Of a DNA stretch of 64,000 nt, positions 3,276 through 64,000 are shown piece by piece. The stretch spans positions 4,650,001-4,714,000 of the forward strand of contig OZ020267.1 in NCBI GenBank assembly GCA_963971225.1. Reading direction: 5' to 3'. The DNA comes from Melieria omissa (Eukaryota > Arthropoda > Insecta > Diptera > Ulidiidae). The position numbers were made by a program, and so were the translations under genes. Position 1 is the stretch's first letter, and each line of letters begins with the position of its first letter. Under the pieces are notes generated by a model. The model saw nothing but the letters and a program-made list of their open reading frames with translations. It was not told where the DNA came from and searched no databases.

Positions 3276-4006
3276 CACCAAATTGCGTCTGAAATTTCTC
3301 AAAAGAATGCAAACCAAAGGGTGGACAACTACTGCTGTCGCACACAAGTCGAATTAAATGCACATTGGGACATTCTTATGCACACACACAAACACACACA
3401 TACAGTGACACACAGATACACTCGTTTGTGCATCAAAGCTATAGTGAAACGCCATCAGACACCAGCTGGTCATAAAACGCACAGTGTGCATCGCTGCTGT
3501 TCGCTCTTTGCGGCAAACGTTGCCATCCGCGACCCGTCCGTCCACCATTGAGCGCTGTCTGGCCTAAACTTTATAATTTTGTGCAAAAGTAATTTCGAAC
3601 TGGTCGCCCCTCTCCTATCTTCACCTCCTGCGCATCTTGTCTGCACAATATGAACATTAACACCCACACGCCCACACGACATTACAATCACTAATCATTG
3701 TCTGCGGCAATTCAGCGTACAATAGGATGGCCCCCTCACCCTTCTGCGTTACGCTGCTCCTTCTCGAACAAACGCAAAATGCCAAACGTAATTTTGTGCT
3801 GCGTCTTTGTTTGGCTGGCCAAGCGTAAAACTGTTCCTAAGCATCTGCAATTCGCCAAAGGGGCCACAAAGCCAGGCAGGATAACAGACAACCACAACAA
3901 CAATATGCATACACATTACAAAGAAAAAAATGGAAGAGTTGCGACAAAGCGCCAGAAGGTTAAGCAATGTGGAGAAATGCTTTCCAACAGTGCTGGACAA
4001 GAGTCG

Positions 4007-4015
4007 AGGGGGCGC
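4007..4015 (+). promoter_or_regulatory. possible CTCF core motif
   Basis: AGGGGGCGC fits the insect CTCF core AGRKGGCGC. It stands alone and its flank (CGAGGGGGCGCAGGG) is GC-rich, so chance is a real alternative. CTCF marks several bithorax domain boundaries in Drosophila. Confidence 0.25.
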
Positions 4016-4282
4016 AGGGACAGTGAAGGCAACAAACAAGGCAGCTGGCAAAAAGCACACAGCCAACTCTTTTTTTCATCTGCTGTCTCCTTCTGCTCTC
4101 GGTTTCCTGCGTTTATGTGAATCTTTTTCGTCCTCTCTGCCCCCAACTCTCTCCTACCTCCACACTGACTGCTTTTGAGGATTTTTCAATAAAGTCACGT
4201 TTTTGTGTTTGACTGACTTCGAGACGAGATTGCCGCAGTCGCTCGAGTGGGTGGAGTGGAGGCGGCGCTGCTCAAGTGGGCG

Positions 4283-5116
4283 GCCATGCAACGCGCAGTT
4301 AAAGCCGCTCGGCCGCTAAGCGACGCACTGCGCATCTTACGAATTATTGTCGCACATATTTAAGGTGTGGCGGCGCATACGCCCACGCATTTAGTGAGCA
4401 CATCGCATTGCCCCCCTTCAATCCCCTCTTCCCTACGGCCGCGCAAAAGCGCACACTCCCGGCCGCCATCATTAGAATTCGCCATACAAATGTCATTCGC
4501 AGCTGTCTGCCTTTCCCACGTGTCGTTCGCATAAGCCGCCCCCTACCCTCCGCCTCCAACAGCACTTGGGGCTGCCGCTCGCTACCGCAAATAAAAAATC
4601 CATATTTATGATGGCACCGGCAGTTTGGGTTTTTGGCATATTTGACGTCCCCACGGCCACTTCACCCTTCGAGCGAAACGTTGGCCTCACCTTGCCAGCG
4701 CCTCCGCCGTCAAATAAAATCTCACAAATATAACGAGCTGGCGGCGCTGCTTTCGATCGTTGCGCTCCTCGCCATCCTCCCACGTTGCGTTTCGTTTCGT
4801 TTCGTTCGAAAGCGGCGCTGGGTTGCAGTGGGCGGGTGGCAGGCGAAAGCAAATACACGCAAATATGGCACGTACTACTCGAACCCATAAGTTTGCGTTT
4901 TATATTGGGGCAAACTGTGCAATATTATAAATTTTGAATTTTATCTCGCACATTAGATCGTTGAAGTAGTGGCGCGATGGCTGGGCGGCGCGCGGCGCAA
5001 CGACTCCCGAAGGTCTTTCGGATTAAATGCGAAGACGTGAGGGTGTTTTGTTTTGCTTTGTTGGCTTTCCGTTTCGACTTTGCGAGCCAGGATTGCAACG
5101 CACAACATTGGATGGC
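4283..5116. promoter_or_regulatory. candidate Polycomb response element (GCCAT cluster)
   Basis: The Pleiohomeotic/YY1 core GCCAT or its complement ATGGC occurs eight times in about 830 bp: 4283, 4465, 4481, 4611, 4771, 4865, 4977 and 5112. Fewer than two would be expected by chance. Zeste-like sites (CGAGTG near 4233, CGAGCG near 4673) lie in the same island. Polycomb response elements of the bithorax complex are built from such clusters. This is motif inference only. Confidence 0.35.
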
Positions 5117-6560: not shown

Positions 6561-8170
6561 GTATTTTGCTTGCTTGGCAGAACTGCGCCTGACATCCCCC
6601 AACCGACGTCTTCAGCGAGCACACGTCGACATTTACAACGACAGCGCCAATGGCTCCGGCCAACATCTGCAGCATTCAGCGGATTGGCATCCAAAGCGTC
6701 CGGCAGTCAACCGACCAAACGCCGCCACATGCTGCGCTCCTCCCTGGCGCGAATCACTGACAAATCGAGTAAACTAAATGGCGATACGTGCGCAACAGCC
6801 CCAAACGGCAAACGAGCATGGAAACAAAACACAGAAATAGAAACGGAAACGGAAGCCGCACAGCATTCACCTGCCCAGACGTCACCGCACCACTCTGTCC
6901 TCGTTCGTGCGCTTCCGCCGTTTCCCACGCTCTGCGCCAAACAGCGAACTTCGGTGGCTGGCTGGCAGTTCAACAGCTGCTGCCAATGTGCGACATGCGA
7001 AACAAGTTGGCGGCAGCAACAACAATAACAACAGGCGGCAGCAGTTGCCATAAGCTTTTGTTTTTATGTGTGGAACAAGTGGTTAAATTATCGTCTCTGA
7101 CGTTGTCGAATAGTTGTGTATGTGTGTGTGCCGCATATGGTGGTGTGTGTGTGACCGTTGGCTGGGGTTGGGTTCGTTCTATTGTAGTCCGTTGTCCACA
7201 GTATCGACGGCCGGCAGGAAGCCAGTCGCGCAGCAAAGGGATGGAGAAGGAAGCACGTTGGCACACACCACCCACCTCACACTCACTTACACCTTCGCAA
7301 TCGCTGCGTGGCCACGCGGCAGCCATTGCACGCAGTGGAAAGTCCTCATGGGATGCGGTTTTGCGGCATTCCGCTTTAATGCTTATTTTCTTCAACTCCA
7401 CACCGCTTCGCTTTCCTCGACATCAGTCCGTTTTTTTCTTATTAAATTCACTCCCCATTTTCCCACTTATTCTGCATTCAAGGTTTTCCTGCCTTTTGTT
7501 TTGCTTTTGCATTTTCCTTCTTTGCTTCTACAAACAAATTTATTTCATTTCCACCACCGCCAGTCAGCCAGCCAGCGCCGCACAATTACCAGTGTGCACC
7601 GTTGCCATAACGGCGTCTGCTCGGCGAAAGGAATTCCGGAAGCACTCAAGTATCCTCAGGCGTATCCTTGCCGCTGTCGACTGCTCGGCCGCCGTGCACA
7701 ATGGAAACATACATAAAACCGAAAACAGCACAACGGTGCGACGACAACGACGACGACGAAGGATGCGAGCGCACAACTGGCGAAAGGACGTACGTAACGA
7801 GCGACAGGACAATTGCGCTGCCACCGCCACGACAAGCAGATCTCGTTCGCCTGCCGCCACATTTCAGTTGCGACTGCACAATCGTCGGAGTAACAACGCC
7901 ACGCCTGTTGCCGTTGCACGCGCCAACAGTCGACAGCGTGTGCCAGCACTTTTCGTTTCGATTTCCATTTTTACGAGTTTCATTAAGTTTTTCAACTGGT
8001 TTTTTTTGTTTTGTTTTTTTCAGTCACTTTCACTTTAATCAGCACTTTGTCGCATTCGAGTGAACACCAACGGGTTCGACTTAACCCGCGACCACCGCGG
8101 GCACTGGTGGCGTGTTAGCCGCGTTATTCGGTTTGATTGTGAACGTAGTTGTTGTTGTTGTTGTGTAATG
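6561..8170. other. balanced island flanking mir-iab-4
   Basis: This transposon-free island leads into the microRNA hairpin. Open frames of up to about 400 codons exist on the plus strand, with competing frames on the minus strand. None has a recognisable domain, and the length reflects GC content. A GT-rich run lies at 7114-7155 and a GTT run at 8148-8162. Primary transcripts of iab-4 (plus) and iab-8 (minus) should cross it. Small hairpins such as CGGGTT...AACCCG (near 8070) occur just upstream of the microRNA. Confidence 0.45.
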
Positions 8171-8177
8171 TGCAACT

Positions 8178-8245
8178 TCGTATACGTATACTGAATGTAT
8201 CCTGAGTGTATCCTATCCGGTATACCTTCAGTATACGTAACACGA
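8178..8245 (+). ncRNA. mir-iab-4: microRNA mir-iab-4 hairpin
   Basis: The 5p arm at 8184-8205 begins ACGTATACTGAATGTATCCT. The 3p arm at 8218-8241 begins CGGTATACCTTCAGTATACG. They pair as a long stem around a loop of about 12 bases (8206-8217), and the lower stem continues through TCGT (8178-8181) with ACGA (8242-8245). As far as I can recall, both arms match the Drosophila mature products base for base, and the loop is nearly the same. In insects mir-iab-4 lies between abd-A and Abd-B in the bithorax complex and represses Hox targets, chiefly Ubx. It is processed from a long transcript running from the abd-A side towards Abd-B. The window's plus strand should therefore run proximal to distal. 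Confidence 0.96.
8178..8245 (-). ncRNA. mir-iab-8: antisense microRNA mir-iab-8 hairpin
   Basis: The same near-palindromic hairpin folds from the minus strand. The expected iab-8-5p product is the complement of 8216-8240 and begins TTACGTATACTGAAGG. In Drosophila the iab-8 long non-coding RNA runs from near Abd-B towards abd-A, carries this microRNA, and helps repress Ubx and abd-A in the eighth abdominal segment of the central nervous system. The sequence shows that both strands can form the stem. Transcription on the minus strand here is inferred from conservation. Confidence 0.85.
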
Positions 8246-8929
8246 GGGAACACCGTCAACGTGGGATCTTAACCTTCGACGCGGCACGGGAACGCGAAAT
8301 GTGCGGCACTCACGAAATCATTCACGGCGACATTTGTTTTGACTGCTAATCGGAATAGTGTGTGAACACCTTCAATGGTGCAATTATTGCGTGTTTGTGA
8401 CTCAATGTTCTCGTATGAAGGAATTGTTGAACAATTAAATAAAAAACTAAAAAATTTACTCCAGACTGTGTTTTTTACTTGTTTATTCACACTAGAAGCT
8501 TCAATCCATGGACAAGCGGCTATCCATATTTCACTTTGGAATATTTCAATACAGGAGGTTTTAAATAGCAATTAAGTCATTTATTATTTAATTAAACTTA
8601 TCGATACTTGGCTCCAATAGTAATAAATACACGAAGCTTAAAAGCTGTAAGTACAATAATTTCTCAGACATGAATAGAACAATTTGCATAGGAATAGTCA
8701 GACAACACTTGACTCCAATCGATGGGGAATCTATGATAATCGACAGTATGCTCTGGTAATTTTTCTATATATTTTATTTTCGTATTTCTTTTTATAAATA
8801 ATTTTTAATATTTAATAATAATTTTTACATCCAAAAAATGATTTTAATAGGAAATTTCGGATTTTTAAGTTTTGTTCCTACATCAATGGTTCGATAGATA
8901 TTTTAATAGACTGACGCATCTTCTGCGCT
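8246..8929. other. spacer downstream of mir-iab-4
   Basis: Balanced composition fades by about 8350 into AT-rich DNA. No gene, repeat or transposon end is clear. Confidence 0.4.
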
Positions 8930-21022: not shown

Positions 21023-21651
21023 TAAGGAGTGTCCACCAAAAAACTAATCCCTCTTTTTTGATTTTTAAAATTTTTCAGGCTTTGCTTTTTTAAAAAGCTC
21101 ACAAAAACTAATTGAATTTAGTTTCATTTTCATTTTAACTCTCGAGGGAAATGGCAGCGAACGAAATTCAGCAGCGAATAAAAACTGTGCACACTTTGAA
21201 TGAAAATCCTACATGGACCCAAAAAAGTTTAAGGAACACCTCACTGTTGAGAGGGCTTCAGGTTCTGGGAGAAAAGCTGGTCCTGCCGGGGAAAATTTTG
21301 CCAATGCAGTGAAGGCGCATTTTAAGAAAAACCCGAATGCATCCGTCCGTGATACAGCATCCATAGTGGGAGTATCAAAAAATTTTGTCCAAAAACGAGA
21401 AATAATGCTCAACTCAAATTATATAGAGTGCAGAAAGTTCCGGATAGAAACAATGACAAGGAAAATGAGCCCAAAAAGCGAGCTAGAAAGTTGTGTGAGT
21501 AGTTTCTTACAAAATTCGGGTGCTGCGTCGTGGACGATGAAACATACGTTCAAGGCGACTTGCAACAATTGCCCGGGCAGCAGTTTTACATTGCCGCAGC
21601 TGAAGGAAAGGCAGATTTTTTGAGGGATCAGTTTTTCGTGGACACTCCTTA
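21023..21651 (+). mobile_element. Tc1/mariner-superfamily element, deleted
   Basis: The element at 21025-21649 (625 bp) has inverted ends AGGAGTGTCCAC, matching imperfectly over about 30 bp through CTRATCCCTC, and TA on both sides (21023-21024 and 21650-21651). It encodes a broken transposase. A SINE inserted only a few bases beyond its right end. Confidence 0.88.
21151..21649 (+). pseudogene. Tc1/mariner transposase fragment
   Basis: The reading starts at ATG 21151 (MAANEIQQRIKTVHTLNENP) and shifts frame near 21213. It then gives a helix-turn-helix-like stretch (ASVRDTASIVGVSKNFVQK). Another shift near 21410 leads to LYRVQKVPDRNNDKENEPKK and a stop (TAG) after KLCE. Beyond it, a further frame gives GCCVVDDETYV, the first catalytic aspartate region, and QQLPGQQFY. 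The rest of the catalytic domain, with the second and third acidic residues, is absent. At least two frameshifts, a stop and the truncation make it inactive. Confidence 0.8.
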
Positions 21652-23179: not shown

Positions 23180-25430
23180 ATGAAAACTATTTGTCTTCAA
23201 ATAACAACTCCATGGGGAGAATTACTGAACGACTCTTTTAGAAGAACAAAAATGCACAACAAATTTTTGTTTTAGTAAAAGAATCAAAGACGAAAAATTC
23301 TTTTTGTCACTTGGGAGTACGATGACAAGGAAACATAACCCAAAAAATAAAGAAGAAGAACAAGCATATCAGAAAGGAATTAATTAGCCCCATTAGGATA
23401 AACATAGACATTGAAGACAGGTAAGAATTGTAAATTTTCCCTTAAAAAACTTAATTTTGTTTGTCACCAAATGTTTGTTTATAAACAGAAGGAAAATTCC
23501 ATGAAAATGAAAAAATGCCATAATCGCTGGGAACTGAAACTGCAACTGTCCAACTGGGAAATTATTCAAATGGTTGAGGACATTTCTTGTGCACTTCCTG
23601 TGCATACATTCAGAATTATAAATCTGAAAACCGCTTCCAAGTTGTATTCACTGCTGCGGCCAAAACCCATTTCGAAATAAGAATTGCTTCGCCATGTTAT
23701 TTCCTTCTCAAATGCCACATACAAAGTGCCATGTTGTAACGCATACATATGTACATAGGTTTGTATAGTAAATACATACAGACGTACGTACTGAATGAAT
23801 TTGGTCTGGTTTATGCAAATCGGTTCATGATTTACGGCGTAAGCGTCTTTCTTATTTGTTTTCACGGAATTTTTGTGTTTGGTATTTTTAGCTACGCCAA
23901 CGTGAATGTGCGCGCAGTTAGTTGAAGTTGTATGAGGCGTTGCGGCAGTCGTGAAGCAGGTTGTGCCTGGGGACACACAGGTTTGTCGCTGCCTACCACT
24001 CGCCACCATTGTGCGACTCGATGCCCATCATATAAATTAGTTTTATTGTATTCAAAAATATTTTACGTATAATTTTTATTCCCCATAAACTAAGCAGTCA
24101 CTAATCGAAAAGGAATATTTATTGAAATGTTCGAGCATTGTGTGAGTGGGTGTGCGTGTGTGTGTGTCTTCTTCTTCGTCTTTTGCTGTGCGTAGTAGAC
24201 AGGAATGCGAATATCGAATTGTTCAATACGGTGCCGGCAGGTTTTGGGGGCTGCGAGCCGAAATGACGGAAGCGAACATTGTTTACGCCAAATGGCTCGA
24301 AGGCACACAGAACAAGCGGGGGCACAGGTTGGCGGTGCAACGCATTTCGTTGCCCATTAAGGCCGCATCCCCAAAGCATGCCAAGTAAACACTTAATTGC
24401 GTCATTAATTGTTGGTTAGTGTGCCAGTCAGCGAGCCAAATGCACTCGGCGGACCGCCTGTCAAGCGCGGCTACACTTTGCTCCACTTCGTACTCAATAA
24501 CAGCTGAAAATGAATCCACAACAACAACAAACGCCAAGCAACTGTAAGCCGAAAATCGAAAAGCAAACCAACGCCGAAGCGCTCTGACTGGCGGCAAGCG
24601 TTCAATATTAAGTGCGCCCGTTGAGTGCAACGCCCCTCCTCCTGCGGGCGCGCCCCGCTGGAGAGCGCGCACCACTTCAGCGCGCCCCAAGCCACTTTAG
24701 CGCGCCGCTGCGGCTGCTCTTAATTGCGCCAACGGCTGCGCAGTCGGCACCGCGTCCATTATGCAGCCGGACCCCCCGCCTTTATTTACTCTTTCACTTA
24801 GGCTGCGCGCTTGTGTATTAATGCGGCAAATTATTGTCAATACAATTGAATATTTTATGGCTGTTAAGTTGACAGTTTTTGCGCTCAAACGGCAGGCGTT
24901 GCTGCGCACACGCACACGCACACACACATAAAAGTGCTAAGCCGATTTCTATCTACCGGCGCATACTGTGAGTATTACACGATATTTATAGGCAAATACT
25001 TACGCACGGTGGCTAAAATTAGCCCATCTAAAGCGGATTGCTTGAAGGAAGACTTGCCAAATTGTTGTCATTAAGCAATGGCTGCAATTTTTTTAATAGT
25101 TAGTGCATTTATGGCATTTGAAAAGTTGGCAAATTTTCAATAAAGTTGAATATGAATTAAATAATATGAAAATTTGCCAAAGGATTAATTAAATTAAATA
25201 TATATGTGAGTAATTTGGTACTGGTTCACTGATTAGAACGTTGAATTGAATAATTAGAATGTTGAATGTAAGAATTAGAACGTTGAATGTTCAGTAAGAA
25301 CTTTTTGGGTTCAACGTTTGAATTGCAACTCAGCTAATACGAAAAGAGCACAAATTATGTTGAGTCAAGTAACATCAGCTCACGGTTGCCACTCGACTAA
25401 ATTTTTGTTAATGAAATTTTTCTAGGAAAG
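23180..25430. other. spacer, then balanced island, then AT-rich spacer
   Basis: From 23180 to about 23570 nothing is seen. From about 23570 to 24990 the DNA is balanced, with GT/CA runs near 24150 and 24905 and a GC-rich patch at 24620-24720 where GCGCGCC recurs. Overlapping open frames here lack domains. At 25234-25290 three ~20-bp copies of ATTAGAAYGTTGAAT lie in tandem. Confidence 0.4.
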
Positions 25431-29729: not shown

Positions 29730-30446
29730 TCGCATGCGTACCTTGGCTGCAATGCGTACGTGGCCCGATGTTGGGTCCTTGGAACGAGCGCACATCTAGA
29801 ATGCTAGAAGCATGCCTTCCATCAATCACCAGGGGGATAACCAGGTCGCCTTGGGGATATCGAGGTGCTGAAATCTGGTGCTACTAACTACCATGTTTTG
29901 TGCCGCGGCGAAATCGATCAGCCTCAGACCGTTGTTCGTAGTGGTTGTATGGAGGCTGAACTACCCGACTGTGGGACCAAATATACCTTCTCGCCCGACC
30001 TTTGCATTGAAGTCCCCGAGGACGATTTTGACGTCATGGGCCGGTCACCCAACGTAGACGTCCTCGAGCTTCGCATAGAAGGCATCCTTGGTCGCATCGT
30101 CCTTCTCTAAAGGCTAAAGTATTTAGCCTTGATGCGGATTCACCGTAGTGAACCGAGAGACGTGGTGGCGTAGTCTCTTGCTGACCACAAGTCCGCAGCC
30201 AAATTCGCTGTAGTAGATGTCGCAGTCTGCTCGCTTGGAGCAACCTTGTCCTGTCCATCGCATTTCTTGGATGGCGGTGATGTCAGCCTTAGATTTTGTG
30301 AGGGCTTCCGCCAGTTGGATAGAGACACCTTCCCCATAGAAGGTCCGGACATTCCAGGTGCATATCCTCAAATCGTGGTCCTTAAATCGTTTGCTTTGGT
30401 CGTCAACACTGTGAGTTCCTTTCGAGGCTTGCTTTCTGGCTTTCAT
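29730..30446 (-). pseudogene. LINE endonuclease domain, RTE-like
   Basis: On the minus strand an apurinic-type endonuclease domain begins near 30380 with LRICTWNVRTF. Next come ADITAIQEMRWTGQG with the catalytic glutamate, FGCGLVVSKRLRH, then HDVKIVLGDFNAKVG (29979-30040) and NGLRLIDFAAAQNMVVSSTR (near 29862-29925). Stops and frame changes occur after NPHQG and again near 29950 and 29800. The final histidine motif and the reverse transcriptase are missing. The motif order fits RTE-like LINEs, whose domain is often misannotated as a craniofacial development protein. Confidence 0.85.
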
Positions 30447-31908
30447 TGGTAGTAGATCTTACGTGGCGAGCACCAAACCCTGCGTACAATCCAAATTTCA
30501 AGTCCTGGGATTGGACTCGCTGCACAAATTAATTCACTATTCAGTGGGTGCCAAATAGCTGTCCAGAAGGGACGCGCGGAGGCTGTGTTTCGGCTTGGAT
30601 TGGACAGGGAAGGTTGAACGCAATCAGAGACAAAACCTTGTATGTCCGCTCCCTTCCTATTCTTGAAATCCTGGAACCTTGAAATATTAACGAAACAGCG
30701 ATTAAGTAGTAGAATTTAGAAAACATTTTCGACTACCCCAATCGCTATTCATCTCTTAGATCTATGAAACCGGAATATTTTCAGAACAATTGTTGTTCTA
30801 TAAAAATTCTCAACCCGTCCTAAGCATCACAAATATTTCTTACATTTTCAAAAAAAAAAAAAAAAATCATAAAAAGTTTAAATTCAAAGGGTTTTTACAA
30901 GCAGTGCCAAATCTGAGTTGTTCGTCAGTCTATAAATTTCGTACACCTCACACTCGACTTTGCTCTTTCAACATCGTCGTTAGGTAGAAATTTTTCAATT
31001 GGATTTAAGGTTTTATGATCGACTTTCTTTCACTTTGTGCACACTTTTCTTGCTTGTTGTAGTTTTTGTATATATTTTTTTGCACCTTTTATGATGCTTC
31101 GTAAAATTCTAAAATTGCAACAACACCAACCAAATGCGACTTCGCACAACCCTTTGTGCTGCAACGTGGAAAATGTTAAATTTGACAACACGGAAAAGTC
31201 ACCGCTGTTCGCCGTTTTACAGCGGCAATAACAAAGCGAGGCTCTGTGGTAAATGGCTATTTTATTGCTGCACGGTTCCTTGTTGAGGCCAAATTTTTGA
31301 ACGGAACTAACAACAACGACAAAACAACGAGTCGCAGTTGTTTGGCGACATAAAAAAAAAAACGAGAAACGTTTACGTGGAATATGAGAAATTACCAACA
31401 CCGGCGCAATTGCCATGTTTTAGCTACAAACATTTTATGCTCGCTTTCATTTATTTATGTATTTGTTGCTATTTTTCATTTTAGTTGTTGTTTTTGTTTG
31501 GTCGCGAGGGTCAGCACTGTGAAAAGTGCTGAGGGCACAAGTACTCGCACCCAACCCTTTTGGCAGCACGAAAACTGCTTATTTGAAAAAAAAAAGGTAG
31601 TTGCTGGCTGAGGCCAAATTTCACGGCTGTTGGCAGCAGCAATGCGACACAGAAGTCACCTGATGCGCGCTGCGTTTGGAATTTCGCAGCAGACTCTTTT
31701 ATGGTTTGTGCATTTTGTTTGGTGTTCCAAGTGACGCCGAATCGAGCAGCAGGTGAGCGCAGACTTTGACTGGCAATTTCAGGAAATCGAATAGACGTAA
31801 AGGATTGCGAAATCTCGATCTCGTGCTGAGGCGAACTTTCACTTGAAGTCGGGGTTCGGCACAGTGGAGCAAAATTTATATTTGTAAATACTTTGTTGGT
31901 CGGTTGGC
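30447..31908. other. spacer and balanced patch
   Basis: 30447-30980 is mixed and includes an A-run of about 17 near 30850. It could hold 5' remains of the LINE upstream. From about 31000 to 31900 the DNA is balanced and transposon-free. No gene is seen. Confidence 0.4.
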
Positions 31909-31910
31909 TT

Positions 31911-32737
31911 AAATAAATAAATAAATAAAATAAATAAAATAAATAAAATAAATAAAATAAATAAAATAAATAAAATAAATAAAATAAATAAAATAAATAA
32001 AATAAATAAAATAAATAAAATAAATAAAATAAATAAAATAAATAAAATAATAAAATAAATAAAATAAATAAAATAAATAAAATGAATAAAATAAATAAAA
32101 TAAATAAAATAAATAAAATAAATAAAATAAATAAAATAAATAAAATAAATAAAATAAATAAAATATATAAAATAAATAAAATAAATAAAATAAATAAAAT
32201 AAATAAAATAAATAAAAAAAATAAAATAAATAAAATATATAAAATAAATAAATTACATAAAGTAAATAATATAAATAAAATAAACAAAATAAATAAAATA
32301 AAAAAAATATAATAAAATAAATAAAATAAATAAAATAAATAAAATAAATAAAGAAAATAAAATAAATAAAATATATAAAATAAATAAAATAAAATAAATA
32401 AATTACATAAAGTAAATAATATAAATAAAATAAACAAAATAAATAAAATAAAAAAAAATATAATAAAATTAATAAAATAAAATACATAAAGTAAATAAAT
32501 TAACTAAAATAAATAAAAAAAATAAAATAAAATACAAAAAATAAATAAAATAAATAATATAAATAAAATAAATAAGATAAATAAAATAAATAAAATAAAT
32601 AAAATAAAATAAATAAAATAAATAAAATAAATAAAATAAATAAAATAAATAAAATAAATAAAATAAATAAAATAAATAAAATAAATAAGATAAATAAAAT
32701 AAACAAAATAAATAAAATAAAATAAACAAATAAAATA
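31911..32737. repeat. 9-bp minisatellite (AAATAAAAT)n
   Basis: About 0.8 kb consists almost wholly of the 9-bp unit AAATAAAAT and variants. A variant block with ATTACATAAAGTAAATAATA occurs at about 32250 and again at about 32400, showing a duplication of roughly 150 bp inside the array. Because 9 is divisible by 3 and the complement has no stop, all three minus-strand frames stay open and encode FIL, LFY or YFI repeats. This is not a gene. Confidence 0.95.
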
Positions 32738-39660: not shown

Positions 39661-42639
39661 TTTATGTTTCAAATCACCAGGAGAATTGGAATCACGTCAA
39701 CTAGGAGACATCTTTGTTTTGAGTTCCAACTTTGCCGGCCTCTACCGACTTCATTTTTGGATTTATTTTTTTGTAACTACTTATTATAGGTACATTTTTA
39801 TACTTTTCTAATTTTAGCCGATAAAAACGTGGATGGTATTTTTTAATTAATTAAATTTTTTTTAATTACGCCCGTAAAATCACCTCAAAATCGAGCCTGT
39901 ACACTAAAATACCTCCTTAATATTTGAACATTTTCATTCATTCATTTTTCTCTTTTTTTTATTAATTTTTTTAATTTTCAGGCTACTTTCAAAAAAATAA
40001 TAAAATAAAAAAAATATAAAAAAACTAATAAAAAATAAAATTTTGCACAGTGTAATTAGAAGCACGCGTCCGCGCCCATAAGCCAGCCCAACTAGCAGTT
40101 AGACCGTCCGTCGAAGCGGCAGCCAGCGTGGCTGGAGCGAAGCGGGACTGAAGAGGACAACAAGGAGTCAGACGGACACACGAAATATTCCGCAACGCTC
40201 CATTGTGCACACAGCGGCAGCACTCGTTTTACCAAATAATTTATGGTTACCAAAATTCAAACTTTTCTTGCTCGTTTCTGCGCAAAAGTTTTGCTTAGTT
40301 TTGTATTTCTTCTTATTTATTTAGTTTTTTTCGAGGATTCTCTCTCCGCTCAACGTGTCCTATGTTCGACAATATTTTTGGCAAATGCTTTTTGTTGTTG
40401 ATATTTTGACGTATTTCGTTGTTGTTGTTGTTAGTTAGAAATGTTCCCACTGTACCCACTGCGCACTCCAATCTAGAGAAATGGCGGCGCGGGGTTTTGT
40501 GCCGAAAATTCGCCCTTCGCATTTACCATTTGACAGAGCGGAAAGCGAAAAGCAAAAAGCGAGACCTGACGTGGGTTTTGCCAGCAAACACGCTAACTGT
40601 GTGGGAGTTAACCGTTGCGGCGTGCACGTACACGAGCCAAAGGTCCAAAACGTTTGCAGCTGACGCTGTTCGTTTCGGTGGGTGAATTTGGGCGTTTTGT
40701 GGGGCCCAGGAAATTACTTCGGAGAGCACACGCGTTCGTTCATTCGGTGGCACGTTTGCCAAATGGCCTCATGCGTGTCTAGCATACATTGCCATTTGCC
40801 ATGGGCCGTTGGTGTGGCCGCGCAGCGAAGGATGCGAATGCCACTGGCTCCTTTGCCTTTGCCCTCAGTCGTCTTTTGCGCCATTGCGCAATTTTGTCGC
40901 ATATTTGCTGCTTTGCTGGCTTTTTTCCGGCTCGCAAATGTGCGTTGCCCATTTTGCAAATTTCAAATATAATTTTAGTTTTCCGTTTTTTGGGGGGTTT
41001 TTAGTCAAGAAATGCTAACCAAAAAAACCTTTTTCATTGAGCCACTTGTAAAATTTTGTTTGGGTGCAAACAAATAAACAAACTGACATTTATTTGAGCG
41101 CATTATGTGTGTGTTTTCGAGCAGCAGAAATACAGATGCGTTCGCTTTGCCTTCGTTTGCCCATCGCCTTTCGGTTCAAGTGCGCATCTCAACGCACTGA
41201 CGCACCCAACCAACCAACCAGTCAGCCAGCCAGGAAATCGGGCAGCCATGTGCCGCTGCCAGTTTTGCACATTTTGTTATTTTCTTATTGTTGTTGTTGG
41301 GTAAGTTGTTGTTATTGCTGATGAAGTTGAAAACTCTGGCAATTATTTGAAAAGCTTTCAGGGTGAATTCTCAACCGTTTTGCCAGCATTCAGCGCTCAC
41401 CGTTCACAATTCGCCATTTGGTATTTGCCATTATTTCTTATTTTGCACCATTTCTCAGTCACAGCAGGTTAACGACACTCCGAGGACCACACGTTACCCT
41501 CGCAACCGACAAAGTCAACGAAATTGTGTTGCGAAAACCAAGTCAGCGAATGCGGCAGCGCCAAATTAAAACTCAATGGATTTAATGCATTTTTAACAAG
41601 ATGTTTCGTTAATTCATTCCGAAATTAACGTGTAGATGGAATGAAAGCAATTAAAACGCAAAATTAAAATATTAATTAGGAACGCAGCAAATTGAATTGA
41701 ATTTATAATTGGAAACTTGCGAGCGTGCGCTGCTGCGGTATTCGAGTGGCATCTGGGTTGGTGTGCGTGTGTGTGTGATTGCTGCCTTTGGCGGCTGAGA
41801 GCACAATTCAAGCAAAATTTACGCATTTTATGGAACAACAATATCCGCAACTATTGCTGAGTGCGCCCTACAAAAGGGCGGCTGCAAAATTTTCGAACGC
41901 ATTTGTTAAGCTCCCAAATGGCGCTTAGACCACAACTCGTAGGCAGTTGAGGCAATTCGAGTGGTTTAATTAAATTTTGGTATAAACACTGAGTTATGTT
42001 GAGCCAATGTGCGCTCAACTACGGGTTTCGATTAAAAGTGTGGAAAACTTTAATTAATATATATATTGAAAATTCAAATAAACTACTTGTATACTATGAC
42101 TAATAAATATTTAATCCGTTGTTGCTTTTTGTAGGTAGGCAGCTTTTTGTTAATGATGACAAGAATATAGTGGAACATTTCAACCATTTGGAAGGATTTC
42201 ATAAGAAATTGCAAGAAACTTTTAACTATCAAAAATATCAAATTATTATTAATTATTAAATTATTATATTAAAAATATCAATGTAGAAAAATATAAATTA
42301 TATAATTATCAAAAATAAATAGGTATCAACTTCTCAATTCCAAAAGTTTGCCTTGCCACTGCAAAGACTCATAAAACTGAAGGGCTTAAAGTTAAAAAAG
42401 TATTGCTCGTAAAATTTTAACTTTGTTACTCATCATTCATGCTAAATGTCAATTTAAACACGATTTCTTATAGTCCGATATAAGTAAAAAATATACTAAA
42501 TACTACCTCACTCGGCAAACTTTGTCTCACATGACATTTGTTGTTTTTTTATAATGAAATACGCGAGATGGCAAATAAATGGCGATGCAAATTGACGATG
42601 AAAACCAACTAAAGGAAGAGGAGGAGCTACTGATTAACG
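39661..42639. other. AT-rich spacer then balanced island
   Basis: To about 40040 and from about 42000 the DNA is AT-rich and empty. 40040-42000 is balanced, with a GTT run at 40418-40435 and a GT run near 41765. It is transposon-free and contains a GCCAT cluster listed separately. Overlapping open frames show no domain. Confidence 0.4.
40763..41431. promoter_or_regulatory. candidate Polycomb response element (GCCAT cluster)
   Basis: Seven GCCAT/ATGGC cores lie in about 670 bp: 40763, 40791, 40798, 40880, 41245, 41413 and 41427, against about one expected. Two are only seven bases apart (GCCATTTGCCATGGG). This density is typical of Pleiohomeotic-bound elements in the bithorax complex. No GAGAG box lies close by, so the call is tentative. 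Confidence 0.35.
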
Positions 42640-57772: not shown

Positions 57773-58407
57773 GAGTTTGCTGGATTTTAATAAAACTTTA
57801 AGTAAATAATTATCTAACTAACTAAGTAGCTAAAAAACGAACGAACTAATTAACTAACTGAATAACTTACTAACTAACTTACTTACTAACTAACGATTTA
57901 ATATTAGGATCACTTGTAATCAGTTATTATTTCCAGGCATTATTATTAACAATTATTTAATAATCATTAATCAGACTATTTAGATTTAATTGAGTTTGTT
58001 TAATTTTAATAAAATTTTTTCTAATTCATTATCTAACTAACTAACTAAGTAGCTAAAAAACGAACTAACTAATAACTAACTGAATAACTAACTAACTCAC
58101 TAACTCACTAGCTAACTAACGATTAACTAAGAGGATCACGTGTGATCAGTTATTATTTATTATTATTATTAGAGAAGAAGAGAATCATTTATAATAAGTT
58201 GCACTTAGACTGATTAAGGTTTAATTGATTAAAAATTAATTTAACGAATAAATAGAAAACTAATATAAATTATTAATTTCACCATGGGTTATAAATATAA
58301 TTTAAAAAGACTGGCATGAGTTTACTTAATTTTAATAAAATTTTAACTAATTATCAAACAAGCTATTTAACTAACTAACTTACTTACTAACTAACTAACT
58401 AACTATT

Positions 58408-58458
<51 letters not shown>

Positions 58459-59310
58459 ATAACTAACTAACTAGCTAAATAACTAACTAACGATTGACTA
58501 ATAAGATCACGTGTAATCAGTTGTTATTTTCAGGAATTATTATTAATAACTAATTAATAATCATGAATCATTTATAATAAGTTGCACTTAGACTGATTTA
58601 AGCTTAGTTGATTGATTGAATTAATTAATTAATGAAAAAAATATATAAATAATTAGTATAAAATATAATTAGTTATATAAATAATTAATTTCACCATGGG
58701 TTATAACTATAATTTAAAAAGACTGGTATGAGTTTGTTTAATTTTAATAACATTTCAACTAATTATCTAATTAACTAACTATTTAACTAACTTACTAACT
58801 AACTAACTAGCTAACTAACGATTGACTAATAAGATCACATGTTATTATTTCCAGGCATTATTAAACAAAATTATTTAACAATCATTAATCATTCATAATA
58901 AACTGCACTTAGACTGATTTTGGTTTAATTGATCAACAATTACATTAATTAAGTAATTGAAAATTAACATAAAGTATTAGTTTTACTATGAGTAATAAAT
59001 GAAATTAAAAAAAAACTGGTATGAGTTTGTTTAATTTTAATAAAATTTTAACTAATTATCCAACGATTAACTAATCACGTGTAACCAGTTATTATGTCCG
59101 AGTATTATTTAAAAAAAAATAATTAATAATCATCAATCATTAATTAATAATCATTAATCATCATAATTAAGTTCCACTTAGACTGATTTAGGTTTAATTG
59201 ATTTCAAATTAAATTAATTAATTAATTGAAAATAAATATAAATTCTTAGTTTCACTGCGAGTAATACATAAAATTTAAAAAGACTGAATAAAAGATGTTA
59301 ACTAATGATA
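57773..59310. repeat. satellite-like array with CTAA runs and E-boxes
   Basis: Five units begin at GAGTTT (57773, 57992, 58318, 58730, 59023). Each starts with a shared TTAATTTTAATAAAATTTTA-type block, then a (CTAA)n run of variable length, then GATCACGTGTAATCAGTTATT or a variant, then an AT-rich half with TTGCACTTAGACTGATT. Unit length varies from about 220 to 410 bp mainly through the CTAA run. Three of the five units keep the E-box CACGTG (58137, 58508, 59076). Confidence 0.9.
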
Positions 59311-62065
59311 ATATTTAGAAATTGTTAAGCAATTAAAATTTTAAATCAAGTTTAATCGAACTCAATTTATACAACTTTAAAATAATTTTTAAATCAAGGT
59401 GAGTTAATCATAATTTGTAGTCCTGTTTAGTTAAGCAAGTTTGAGTTTAAAAAAGCTTAATGCTTAGTTAATTTCACTTTCTTTTAAATAAAATTGCATT
59501 TATTTAACTATATATTTTAACTAATACTTTGTAGTCAGATGCCATCGATGACACTGCATTGAGTAACAATCATAAATTCTTAGCTATATTGAAAAAAAAC
59601 TAATATTATTCATTGGTCAATGACTTTTGTTTAATTGCTTTTTAATCGCCCAGATTGAGTTTCATCCAATTTTATGCACAACATTTTCCGCCACACTTCA
59701 CCGCAAAAATGTGTCAACTGTCCACAGCCACCAACGGGATAGTAAAAATAAAATCAACAACAACAAACAAGTGGCACAAACAAGCAGCAAATGCCCTATT
59801 AAAGGCAATAAAAGGCTACTAAAAAATGTATTTCGTTTCATTCATAAAAACGCGCAACCATATTACCCAGTCAGCCAGTCAGCCAGTCAGTCAGTCAGCC
59901 AGCCAGCGAGCCGCCAAAACTGCCAAGCAGCCAAAGCAAATGTAAACAAACGCTCCAAGTGACGAGCCCCAAGAGTGCAAAAGCGACAATTCGCAGTGGT
60001 TCGAAAACTGGTAAAGCTGGAGAGACGTGAAGAAGTGCCCAAGTGGCACACTGGCGAAGAGGCGAGGTGGTAAAAAAGCCTCACAACGACTTGACATGTT
60101 GTTGGCGCTGTTTTTGGTCGTGTGATTGTTGTTGTCAAAGTCATTGTTCATTTTTTACGAGCGCGTATGCTGGCAACACCACCACACACCGCTCACACAT
60201 ACACACACGCACACACACATGCACGAATGCGCGCCTGAAGACCAGCACACACCAGCAACCAAAACACTTAAATGCTATTTAATGGCGCAATAATAATGCT
60301 TTATTTTACTATTATGATCATGTCCGTCAGTGGGACTGCGGCTGCGACTGCGCGCGTCCACACTGTACTCGCACGAATGTGTGTGTGTGTGTGCATAAGC
60401 GTGTGTGTGTTGTCATTGTTGTCTGGCGCACGTCTAGCGGCAACCAGGCTGCGTCTTCAGCGGCTGCGTCTTCGGACCGCTTAATGGGCCACCAATGCCG
60501 CTGGCAATAGCGAAAATTTCGAGCTTTTACGGTCGTTTAACCTTGACATTAACAAATGGCAGCGGCACGCGCACCTGACACCGCCGCGCATCCGCCGTCG
60601 CCGCTCAAACTCAATTTGATGATTATTTCCCACATGACCATAACCTGCCGCAACAACGCCGCTGTCCGCGTGCGGCTCATTTAAATGGTGTGCCGCCATA
60701 AAACAGGCGAGAAGCTGCAGTCGCAGCGGCAAGAGATGTTGACGACAGCGGCGGCGGCGGCGTTAAAGGCGTTGTGGCAGCGGTGTGTGCAGCGCACTCG
60801 TAATCCATCATAAAACAATTTTTTATGAGCGCCATCAAAGCGCGCACCACTTGCTCCACTTCACTGGGCGCAATGCATTGCGATGCTGAACGGAGAGGAA
60901 CACGAAGGGGCACACTCGTTGTAAATCTCGACAAATTGCTCAACAAATTTCTGTATTGTTGTTGCTGCTGCTTCTGCTGCTGCTGTGCAGTAATTTGTAT
61001 TTTTGTGCCTTTACAACAACAACAAACAATCACAGCATGTACACAATGACCAGAGCTATTAAGTCATTGCGACGGCATTGCCACTTTTAAATTCAACGAC
61101 ACTCCCCCATTTTCCCCTCACCTACCCCCCATTCGAGCTTCTTCACTGCACACACATCGAGTGTTTATAGATTTTATTATTGCTTTCGGCGTGCGATTCT
61201 TTTACGATCATTTTTGTTGCTGTTGTAGTTTTGTTTTGGTTTATTGGCCAATCGTTTGGGCTGTTAGCGTTCAATGTTTGCTGTTTATGTTGGCGCGCTG
61301 GCTGTCGATTTTTTAATAACACTCACCGGTATTTTATGTCCGTTTGATATGCTTCGCTCGGTGCCGCCAAAAAGCGAGCCGGATTTTTGATGAGCTTTTA
61401 ATTGTGGCCATTAACACGTCGTTATGGGACACTAAACTGAACTGAACGGATCAGTGACGACATTACGTCTGAATTGGTCTGAATTGGTGAGTGTGGGCGT
61501 GTGACGCAGCGAACAACAATTTGATGGATTATCAATGAAAAATAAAATTGAATGAATTGAATCAAACTTGATTCTGGCAACATGTGTAAAGGTCGTTTTC
61601 TGTTTCACTTCCCATGCATCACGTTCACTTGTGGCATTGCGCGGTGAGTTCATAAAACAACGTCATTACTGCACACAAATCGCTGCCGTGTAATTCAGTT
61701 GGTTGGTCATAAAATTGTGTATGCAATGCTTTGCGTCATACATTGCCACCGTCACTGTCGCTGGCCCGTAGTCTGTCTGTCGTGTGTTGGCAATTTGGCA
61801 GCGTTTGTCGCACACTTTGAGCGCAACATTTGCCTAAATAATGAATCAGTGTGGCGCAGAGGAACTTTTGCGCGCATGAATGTGTCAGGTGGAAGTATGA
61901 AACGAATGTGATTTACCTGCTTAGGCAGTTCTTTACTTATTTATTAAAACATTTTTTTTGTCAAAGAATATTCAATTATGCTGACACACTTATGAACAGC
62001 GAATAACAAAATTGTGCAGAATAACAAATTGTGAGGACTTCACAAGTCCAGTCGCCTCGTTCTGC
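59311..62065. other. spacer then balanced island
   Basis: 59311-59620 is AT-rich. About 59620-61920 is balanced and transposon-free, with CAGTCAGC repeats near 59870, a CA run near 60200 and a GT run near 60380. GCCAT or ATGGC occurs at about 60283, 60556, 60692 and 60830. Overlapping open frames have no domain. Confidence 0.4.
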
Positions 62066-62441
62066 TTACACCGTGCGACAAAAATTTAAAAAAATGTTCA
62101 CACCGGGAAAATCCATATGTGCGTCAAACTAGAGACCAAACATAGTAATACTGCGTACTCAGTTTTTCGTTTCTACATCCTTTGTTCTCCTAAAAGGACT
62201 TCAAAATTTTGAAAGGGATAAATATACAAAAATTGATTGATTTTGTATCTTATTATTAAAAATACTGATTCACAAATGCGAGTAAATTAGAATTTTTGTA
62301 CTTCATTAAAATTGCAGCTTCCGCCTTTTTTTATTTATTTTTTATTTATTTATTTTGTTAAAGTAATCCACAAGTTTAATACAGTAAGTTCGTACAGATT
62401 ACTATAAAATGTAATTAAAATATATAAATATCCTAGCTAAC

Positions 62442-63196
62442 TATCAGGTGTACAACTTTGCTTCCGCCGTTTTCCGATAGGTGGCTGTACCGGCTGAGGC
62501 TGGTTGAAATACATAGATGGTAATGCCTTTAAAGTGAGTGTGGACAGTGCCTAACGAATTGTCATCGCCGTTTCAGTGACAGTTGTTCTTGTTTTCGTAT
62601 TATTCACGCTCGAAAATGTCCGTTTATGTGCCCAATTCTCGCCATTTGCGGGAAGTTTCATTTTTATTTTACAATTCGAAAAAAAATGCAGCTGAAGCGC
62701 ATCGAATGCTCTCAGAAACTTACGGTGATGCTGCTCTGAGTGAAAGAACGTGTCGGGAGTGGTTTCAACGTTTTAAAAATGGCCACAATATCAAGAGCGA
62801 CATGACAAAGTCATCCTCCAACACGACAATGCTCGGCCTCACGTCGCAAAAGTGGTCAAAAAGTACCTGGAAACGCTGAAATGGGAAGTCTTGCCCCACC
62901 CGCCGTATTCCCCAGATGTCGCCCCTTCTGACTTCCACCTATTCCGTTCGATGCCACACGGCCTGGCAGATCAACATTTTCAATCCTTCGAAGAATTGGA
63001 AAAATGGATTGCTTCATGGATAGCGTCAAAAGAGGACTCCTTTTTTCGAGCCGGGATCCGAAAATTGCCGGAAAGATGGGAGAAAGTTGTCGCTAGCGAC
63101 GGACAATACTTTGAATAATACATCTGTAAGCACTTTTTCTTAATAAAGCTTTTAATTTTGGAAAAAAACGGCGGAAGCAAAGTTGTACACCTGATA
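62442..63196 (+). mobile_element. mariner element, internally deleted
   Basis: The element at 62444-63194 (751 bp) has perfect 30-bp inverted repeats starting TCAGGTGTACAACTTTGC and TA on both sides (62442-62443 and 63195-63196). The (C/T)CAGGTGTAC start is shared with several mariner subfamilies. Its transposase has lost the middle. It belongs to a different lineage from the mariner at 743-1478. Confidence 0.93.
62616..63118 (+). pseudogene. mariner DD34D transposase, middle deleted
   Basis: The frame opens at ATG 62616 with MSVYVPNSRHLREVSFLFYN. It continues through the helix-turn-helix region (NAAEAHRMLSETYGDAALSE and REWFQRFKNG) and breaks near 62810. The second half resumes in another frame at HDNARPHVAKVVKKYLETLK, then YSPDVAPSDFHLF and LPERWEKVVASDGQYFE, stopping at 63116-63118. 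The two aspartates are 34 residues apart (DD34D). The segment with the first catalytic aspartate, roughly half of the usual ~345 residues, is missing. Confidence 0.92.
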
Positions 63197-64000
63197 ATTA
63201 ATTCAATAACAATTTGAAATGGGTTTCGGAATAGAAAAAACTAAAAAAAAAGATTTTGAGTGCAAGTTGATTTCTTTTAAAGCTCTAAAAATTTAGGCAA
63301 AAGAAGCATAATTTGTTCTTACCCTTTCCAAAGAAAAAGTGGCATGAGTTCTTAACGATCTTTGCGGAATCAAAAAATTGATACGTCCGAGTAAGTAAGG
63401 ACAGTCTATCGCACCCGGGATTAGGTTAAAGACAAAGGTAAGTGAGAGAATACTCCTCCTACCTTCCAATGACTTAACTTTTTAATAACTTTCGAAACAA
63501 TACAGTTAGAGTAATGAAATTTTGACACGTGATCAAGAAGATTTTGGGTTTAAAAAAAAAAAAATTATTTACTTTTCAAGCAAATTCTATACAAATTTTC
63601 GAGGATATAAAGGATTAAAATTTTTAAAGGACCTTTTTTATATCATTTTTTTAGAAATGGATAAAAAATAATTTTTATTTACATTTTTGAGCCTTTCTTC
63701 TTTCATTTGATATACATTTAGCTATATATTAACGAGAATAAGTATTTTTCATACTTTTTTATTTTTTCTCCCCTTCATTTGAAGTCCAAAGGACAAAGGT
63801 TGAAGAAGTGAAAAACTGAGTACGCAGTATTACAATGTTTGATCACTGATTTCACGCCCAATTAGATATTTCCGGTGTGAAAATCTTGTTTATTATTGTC
63901 GCACGGTGTTATAAGAGAGATTTGATGTTTATAAGAGAAATATAGAACAACAGTCTCAAAAATCACTTCTACCTCGAATCGTTAACAATTTGCTATACTA

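Follow-up and report, generated by a model that had tools for sequence, protein, structure and literature searches.

A mir-iab-4/mir-iab-8 hairpin places 64 kb of Melieria omissa DNA between abd-A and Abd-B

What does a 64-kb stretch of fly DNA without an apparent gene belong to, and can one short element tell both where it lies and which way it faces? The stretch considered here (the window, 64,000 nucleotides at its full length) comes from Melieria omissa (Diptera, Ulidiidae; assembly GCA_963971225.1, contig OZ020267.1, here C1) and covers C1:4650001-4714000. A sequence-only reading had named a hairpin near its left end as the insect microRNA locus mir-iab-4/mir-iab-8, and had placed the window in the bithorax complex on that ground. 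We find that the hairpin is almost certainly this known Hox-cluster microRNA locus, probably used from both strands. Moreover, the window sits between abd-A and Abd-B, both on the minus strand of the same contig. One short element gave the identity and the orientation of 64 kb, and the prediction held on both sides. The biology of the locus is itself already known from Drosophila and other arthropods.

The hairpin and its mature products

A search of the 64-kb window against Rfam gave one match at the gathering level, to the mir-iab-4 family RF00725, at 8177-8246, where the hairpin had been described (98 bits, where the gathering score is 73; E 8e-22). The alignment runs from 8246 to 8177 on the minus strand and takes in model positions 1-71 of 71, with differing or missing bases at two positions near the base of the model and at one in the loop. 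The mature products, read directly from the DNA, are as follows.

8177..8246, both strands fold: mir-iab-4/mir-iab-8 hairpin (RF00725, reported on the minus strand)
8184..8205, plus strand: miR-iab-4-5p, 22 nt, exact match to the published sequence (PMC2834634, PMC5898052, PMC2824724)
8218..8241, plus strand: miR-iab-4-3p, 24 nt, exact match to the published sequence (PMC5898052, PMC2824724)
8240-8218, minus strand: miR-iab-8-5p (iab-4as-5p), first 23 nt, exact match to the published sequence (PMC2824724, PMC5751329)
8185..8203, minus strand: miR-iab-8-3p, 19 nt, the PMC5751329 sequence being the reverse complement of iab-4-5p bases 2-20

Both arms are thus matched exactly on the plus strand, and the complementary strand carries iab-8, as the sequence-only reading had it. 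By the published mature sequences, iab-4 is assigned to the plus strand of the window and iab-8 to the minus strand. Rfam reports the minus strand because the RF00725 consensus follows the sense of iab-8: it starts with what published papers name iab-8-5p or iab-4as-5p (PMC2824724, PMC5751329).

abd-A and Abd-B on either side

Since the minus strand carries iab-8, the expectation was abd-A to the left and Abd-B to the right. Both are found there with homeodomain queries. In the 200 kb searched on the left, the abd-A homeodomain exon is identical to the query at 59 of 59 residues and continues with LRAVKEINEQ. Five exons of the gene were found, all on the minus strand, from C1:4552780 down to 4502159.

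C1:4552780-4552697, minus strand: abd-A start exon
around C1:4550460, minus strand: abd-A exon with YPWM
C1:4540235-4540185, minus strand: abd-A exon with DWMGSP
C1:4504542-4504366, minus strand: abd-A homeodomain exon
pieces from C1:4502500 to 4502159, minus strand: abd-A last exon, then a TAA stop

Joined, they encode a protein of 312 amino acids. Its 84 matches at E <= 1e-60 (from 7,934 scored candidates, those sharing most words with it) are, where named, mostly abdominal-A from flies and other insects. The hairpin lies 105 kb from the abd-A start codon.

On the other side, 246 kb from the hairpin, is the Abd-B homeodomain exon at C1:4904438-4904572 (minus strand), the best of 38 matches to the Abd-B query in the assembly. 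All 45 of the 45 matched residues are identical (E 1.9e-22), and the top match of the peptide in the PDB is abdominal-B (5zjq and three more entries, 2e-29). The frame departs after residue 45 and VKIWFQ resumes soon afterwards, apparently across a short intron. No Hox homeodomain occurs in the 90 kb C1:4794001-4884000, a stretch picked from Drosophila distances, in agreement with Abd-B at 4904438. The Hox genes sought in the flanking contig are present, and both the placement in the bithorax complex and the left-to-right order on the minus strand are borne out.

These two genes belong to a larger set. Matches to the Abd-B query (a search that genes like bcd may escape) place eleven homeodomains on the one contig, at C1:3238975-4904572, over 1.67 Mb. 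From their motifs we take them to be, in order, lab, pb, two zen-like genes, Dfd, Scr, ftz, Antp, Ubx, abd-A and Abd-B. The plus strand carries Dfd and one zen-like gene, and the minus strand all the others, including ftz. Between Antp and Ubx the Hox complex seems to be continuous; that of D. melanogaster is split at this point.

miR-iab-8, abd-A and the alternatives

According to PMC3359974, miR-iab-8 and transcription across the abd-A promoter repress abd-A redundantly in Drosophila, where the abd-A 3' untranslated region (UTR) carries seed matches. By analogy, the plus strand of the Melieria omissa locus would be read within an iab-4 transcript that gives miR-iab-4-5p and -3p. The minus strand would be read within an iab-8 transcript that heads for abd-A from the Abd-B side and yields miR-iab-8. 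In turn, miR-iab-8 would pair with seed sites beyond the abd-A stop codon and so repress this gene. We infer transcription, processing and repression in this species from Drosophila; the seed sites are observed directly.

Sites for iab-8-5p lie 220, 1805, 2289, 6795, 6983 and 7202 nt after the abd-A stop. Three fall within 2.5 kb of the stop (0.15 on average in shuffles, none of the 400 reaching 3) and six within 7.5 kb (0.35 on average, none of the 400 reaching 6). Seed matches after the abd-A stop are a likeness to Drosophila, as are the strand and direction of the microRNA carried by the iab-8 non-coding RNA (PMC3359974). The enrichment is in line with the Drosophila mechanism, short of proving repression, and repression of abd-A by miR-iab-8 in Melieria omissa is likely on this analogy.

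Several points weigh against it. The stretches counted are fixed lengths from the stop and may reach beyond the 3' UTR. Across the region, at least three iab-8-5p sites also occur in 29 of 2,092 overlapping 2.5-kb windows, and at least six in 2 of 2,052 windows of 7.5 kb (both strands counted, abd-A's own stretch included). One iab-8-5p site also occurs antisense to abd-A in the stretch that follows its stop codon. The other three products (iab-4-5p, iab-4-3p and iab-8-3p) have no site in the first 2.5 kb past the stop; in 7.5 kb, iab-4-5p has one and the other two none. In Drosophila itself, abd-A is only weakly misexpressed when miR-iab-8 alone is deleted (PMC3359974). For the microRNAs of the Hox complex, miR-iab-4-5p among them, PMC3290615 reports no major effect in embryos on those Hox targets that were tested. 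Even in Drosophila, then, such microRNAs act on Hox targets weakly or redundantly (PMC3359974, PMC3290615).

The distances in Melieria omissa differ from those of Drosophila. The whole Drosophila iab-8 RNA is given as 92 kb (PMC3359974). Here the spacing is larger, the abd-A start codon lying 105 kb and the Abd-B homeodomain exon 246 kb from the hairpin, and an iab-8 transcript over the same landmarks would span up to ~350 kb, the sum of 246 kb on the Abd-B side and at least 105 kb to the abd-A promoter. Transcription over ~350 kb would take hours, and therefore abd-A repression may lean more on the microRNA, with its enriched seed sites past the abd-A stop, than on transcriptional interference. 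This is a tentative suggestion, somewhat doubtful in our own judgement, and it applies if the Drosophila arrangement holds. If true, it would make the locus a natural test of which redundant mechanism survives an expansion of spacing; the larger spacing allows, at least, a modest comparison that bears on the action of iab-8.

Could the locus be a genuine mir-iab-4 of which the iab-4 strand alone is still used, the iab-8 product having been lost in Melieria omissa? Reads of iab-4as-5p in the silkworm were few beside iab-4, eighteen in all (PMC2824724). But the iab-8-5p sequence is kept exactly and the minus strand folds, while after the abd-A stop iab-8-5p sites are enriched and, in the first 2.5 kb, iab-4-5p sites are not. 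The products of the two strands share bases, so that conservation of one is not fully separable from that of the other. We consider such a loss unlikely and prefer a locus used from both strands.

It is far less probable that the likeness to a microRNA is fortuitous, the hairpin being an inverted repeat arisen by chance or derived from a transposon, although the window does hold mariner-type fragments and other inverted repeats, and although the fold is unexceptional by energy. The long hairpin at 8170-8255 folds at -34.2 kcal/mol on the plus strand (z -5.78) and -33.1 kcal/mol on the minus strand (z -4.68), with none of 200 shuffles as stable in either case. From the pairings of the predicted fold, the plus-strand duplex has 3' overhangs of 2-3 nt. 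The best 80-base window of the hairpin ranks 73rd by energy among 12,786, behind GC-rich stretches and another hairpin at 521-600. Since 72 of the 12,786 fold better, fold energy was dropped as evidence, and the case for a microRNA is made by sequence match. Three published mature sequences are exact, and the Rfam E value is the one given above. With up to three mismatches allowed, the 22-nt iab-4-5p has a single occurrence in the window and none in 100 shuffles. By DNA search, the 121-bp hairpin locus has a single match in the whole 490-Mb assembly (490,334,835 bases in 164 contigs). On both sides of the locus lie the Hox genes that were predicted. Exact scans of viral and of prokaryote contigs with the mature 22-mer, made as a specificity check only, gave 0 and 0.

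The reverse orientation, with abd-A on the right and Abd-B on the left, might be read from the minus-strand report of a family named 'mir-iab-4', but that consensus begins with the iab-8-5p/iab-4as-5p sequence and the assembly refutes it outright, abd-A and Abd-B lying on the predicted sides and strand.

The remainder of the window

The description of the window as gene-free stands for protein-coding genes at the level tested, that is, for all 37 stop-to-stop open reading frames (ORFs) of at least 110 amino acids searched against Pfam, a set that shorter exons could escape. The searched homeodomain motifs are absent from the window in six frames, and ARAGORN found no tRNA in it. Pfam matches at E <= 0.01 occur in four of the 37 ORFs, three of them transposon-type fragments. 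The four matches are listed below, together with three short elements that have inverted repeats of 20-36 nt at their ends:

840-1241: transposase fragment (Pfam, above cut-off)
62777-63118: DDE fragment (Pfam, below cut-off)
30123-30458, minus strand: non-LTR (long terminal repeat) retrotransposon endonuclease-like fragment (Pfam, below cut-off)
23566-24027: baculovirus-envelope match, implausible (Pfam, below cut-off)
745-1472: short element with inverted repeats, holding the transposase fragment, with mariner-type relatives
62438-63200: short element with inverted repeats, holding the DDE fragment
21023-21651: short element with inverted repeats, holding an ORF without a Pfam match

The earlier suggestion, to read all other features of the window as regulatory DNA of the Hox genes with its insertions, holds in part. 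The transposon fragments are there, and from its position the remaining DNA is likely to be Hox regulatory; the analysis brought out no particular enhancer, boundary or Polycomb element in the window. A scan for GAGAG, GCCAT and a CTCF-like core gave weak clusters only, the best of them with 7 motifs per 500 bp (at 4001-4500 and 40301-40800, counted without a shuffle control), and we therefore claim no boundary or Polycomb element.

Searched as a protein, the mariner ORF gave 263 matches, with spider, ant and nematode proteins among the best 120 of the 263. An outer pair of inverted repeats at 62061-63916 (108 nt, 79%) encloses the element at 62438-63200, which seems to be nested inside another element. 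At 31911-32737 a 9-base unit is repeated in tandem ~93 times, and this AT-rich array accounts for long low-complexity ORFs. Several diverged blocks of TAAC/CTAA tetranucleotide repeats, matching one another, are found at 57799-59281. Finally, the stretch at 521-600 forms a single hairpin on both strands (-42.3 and -41.7 kcal/mol), more stable than that of the microRNA, and adjoins inverted-repeat arms at 485-510 and 2117-2142.
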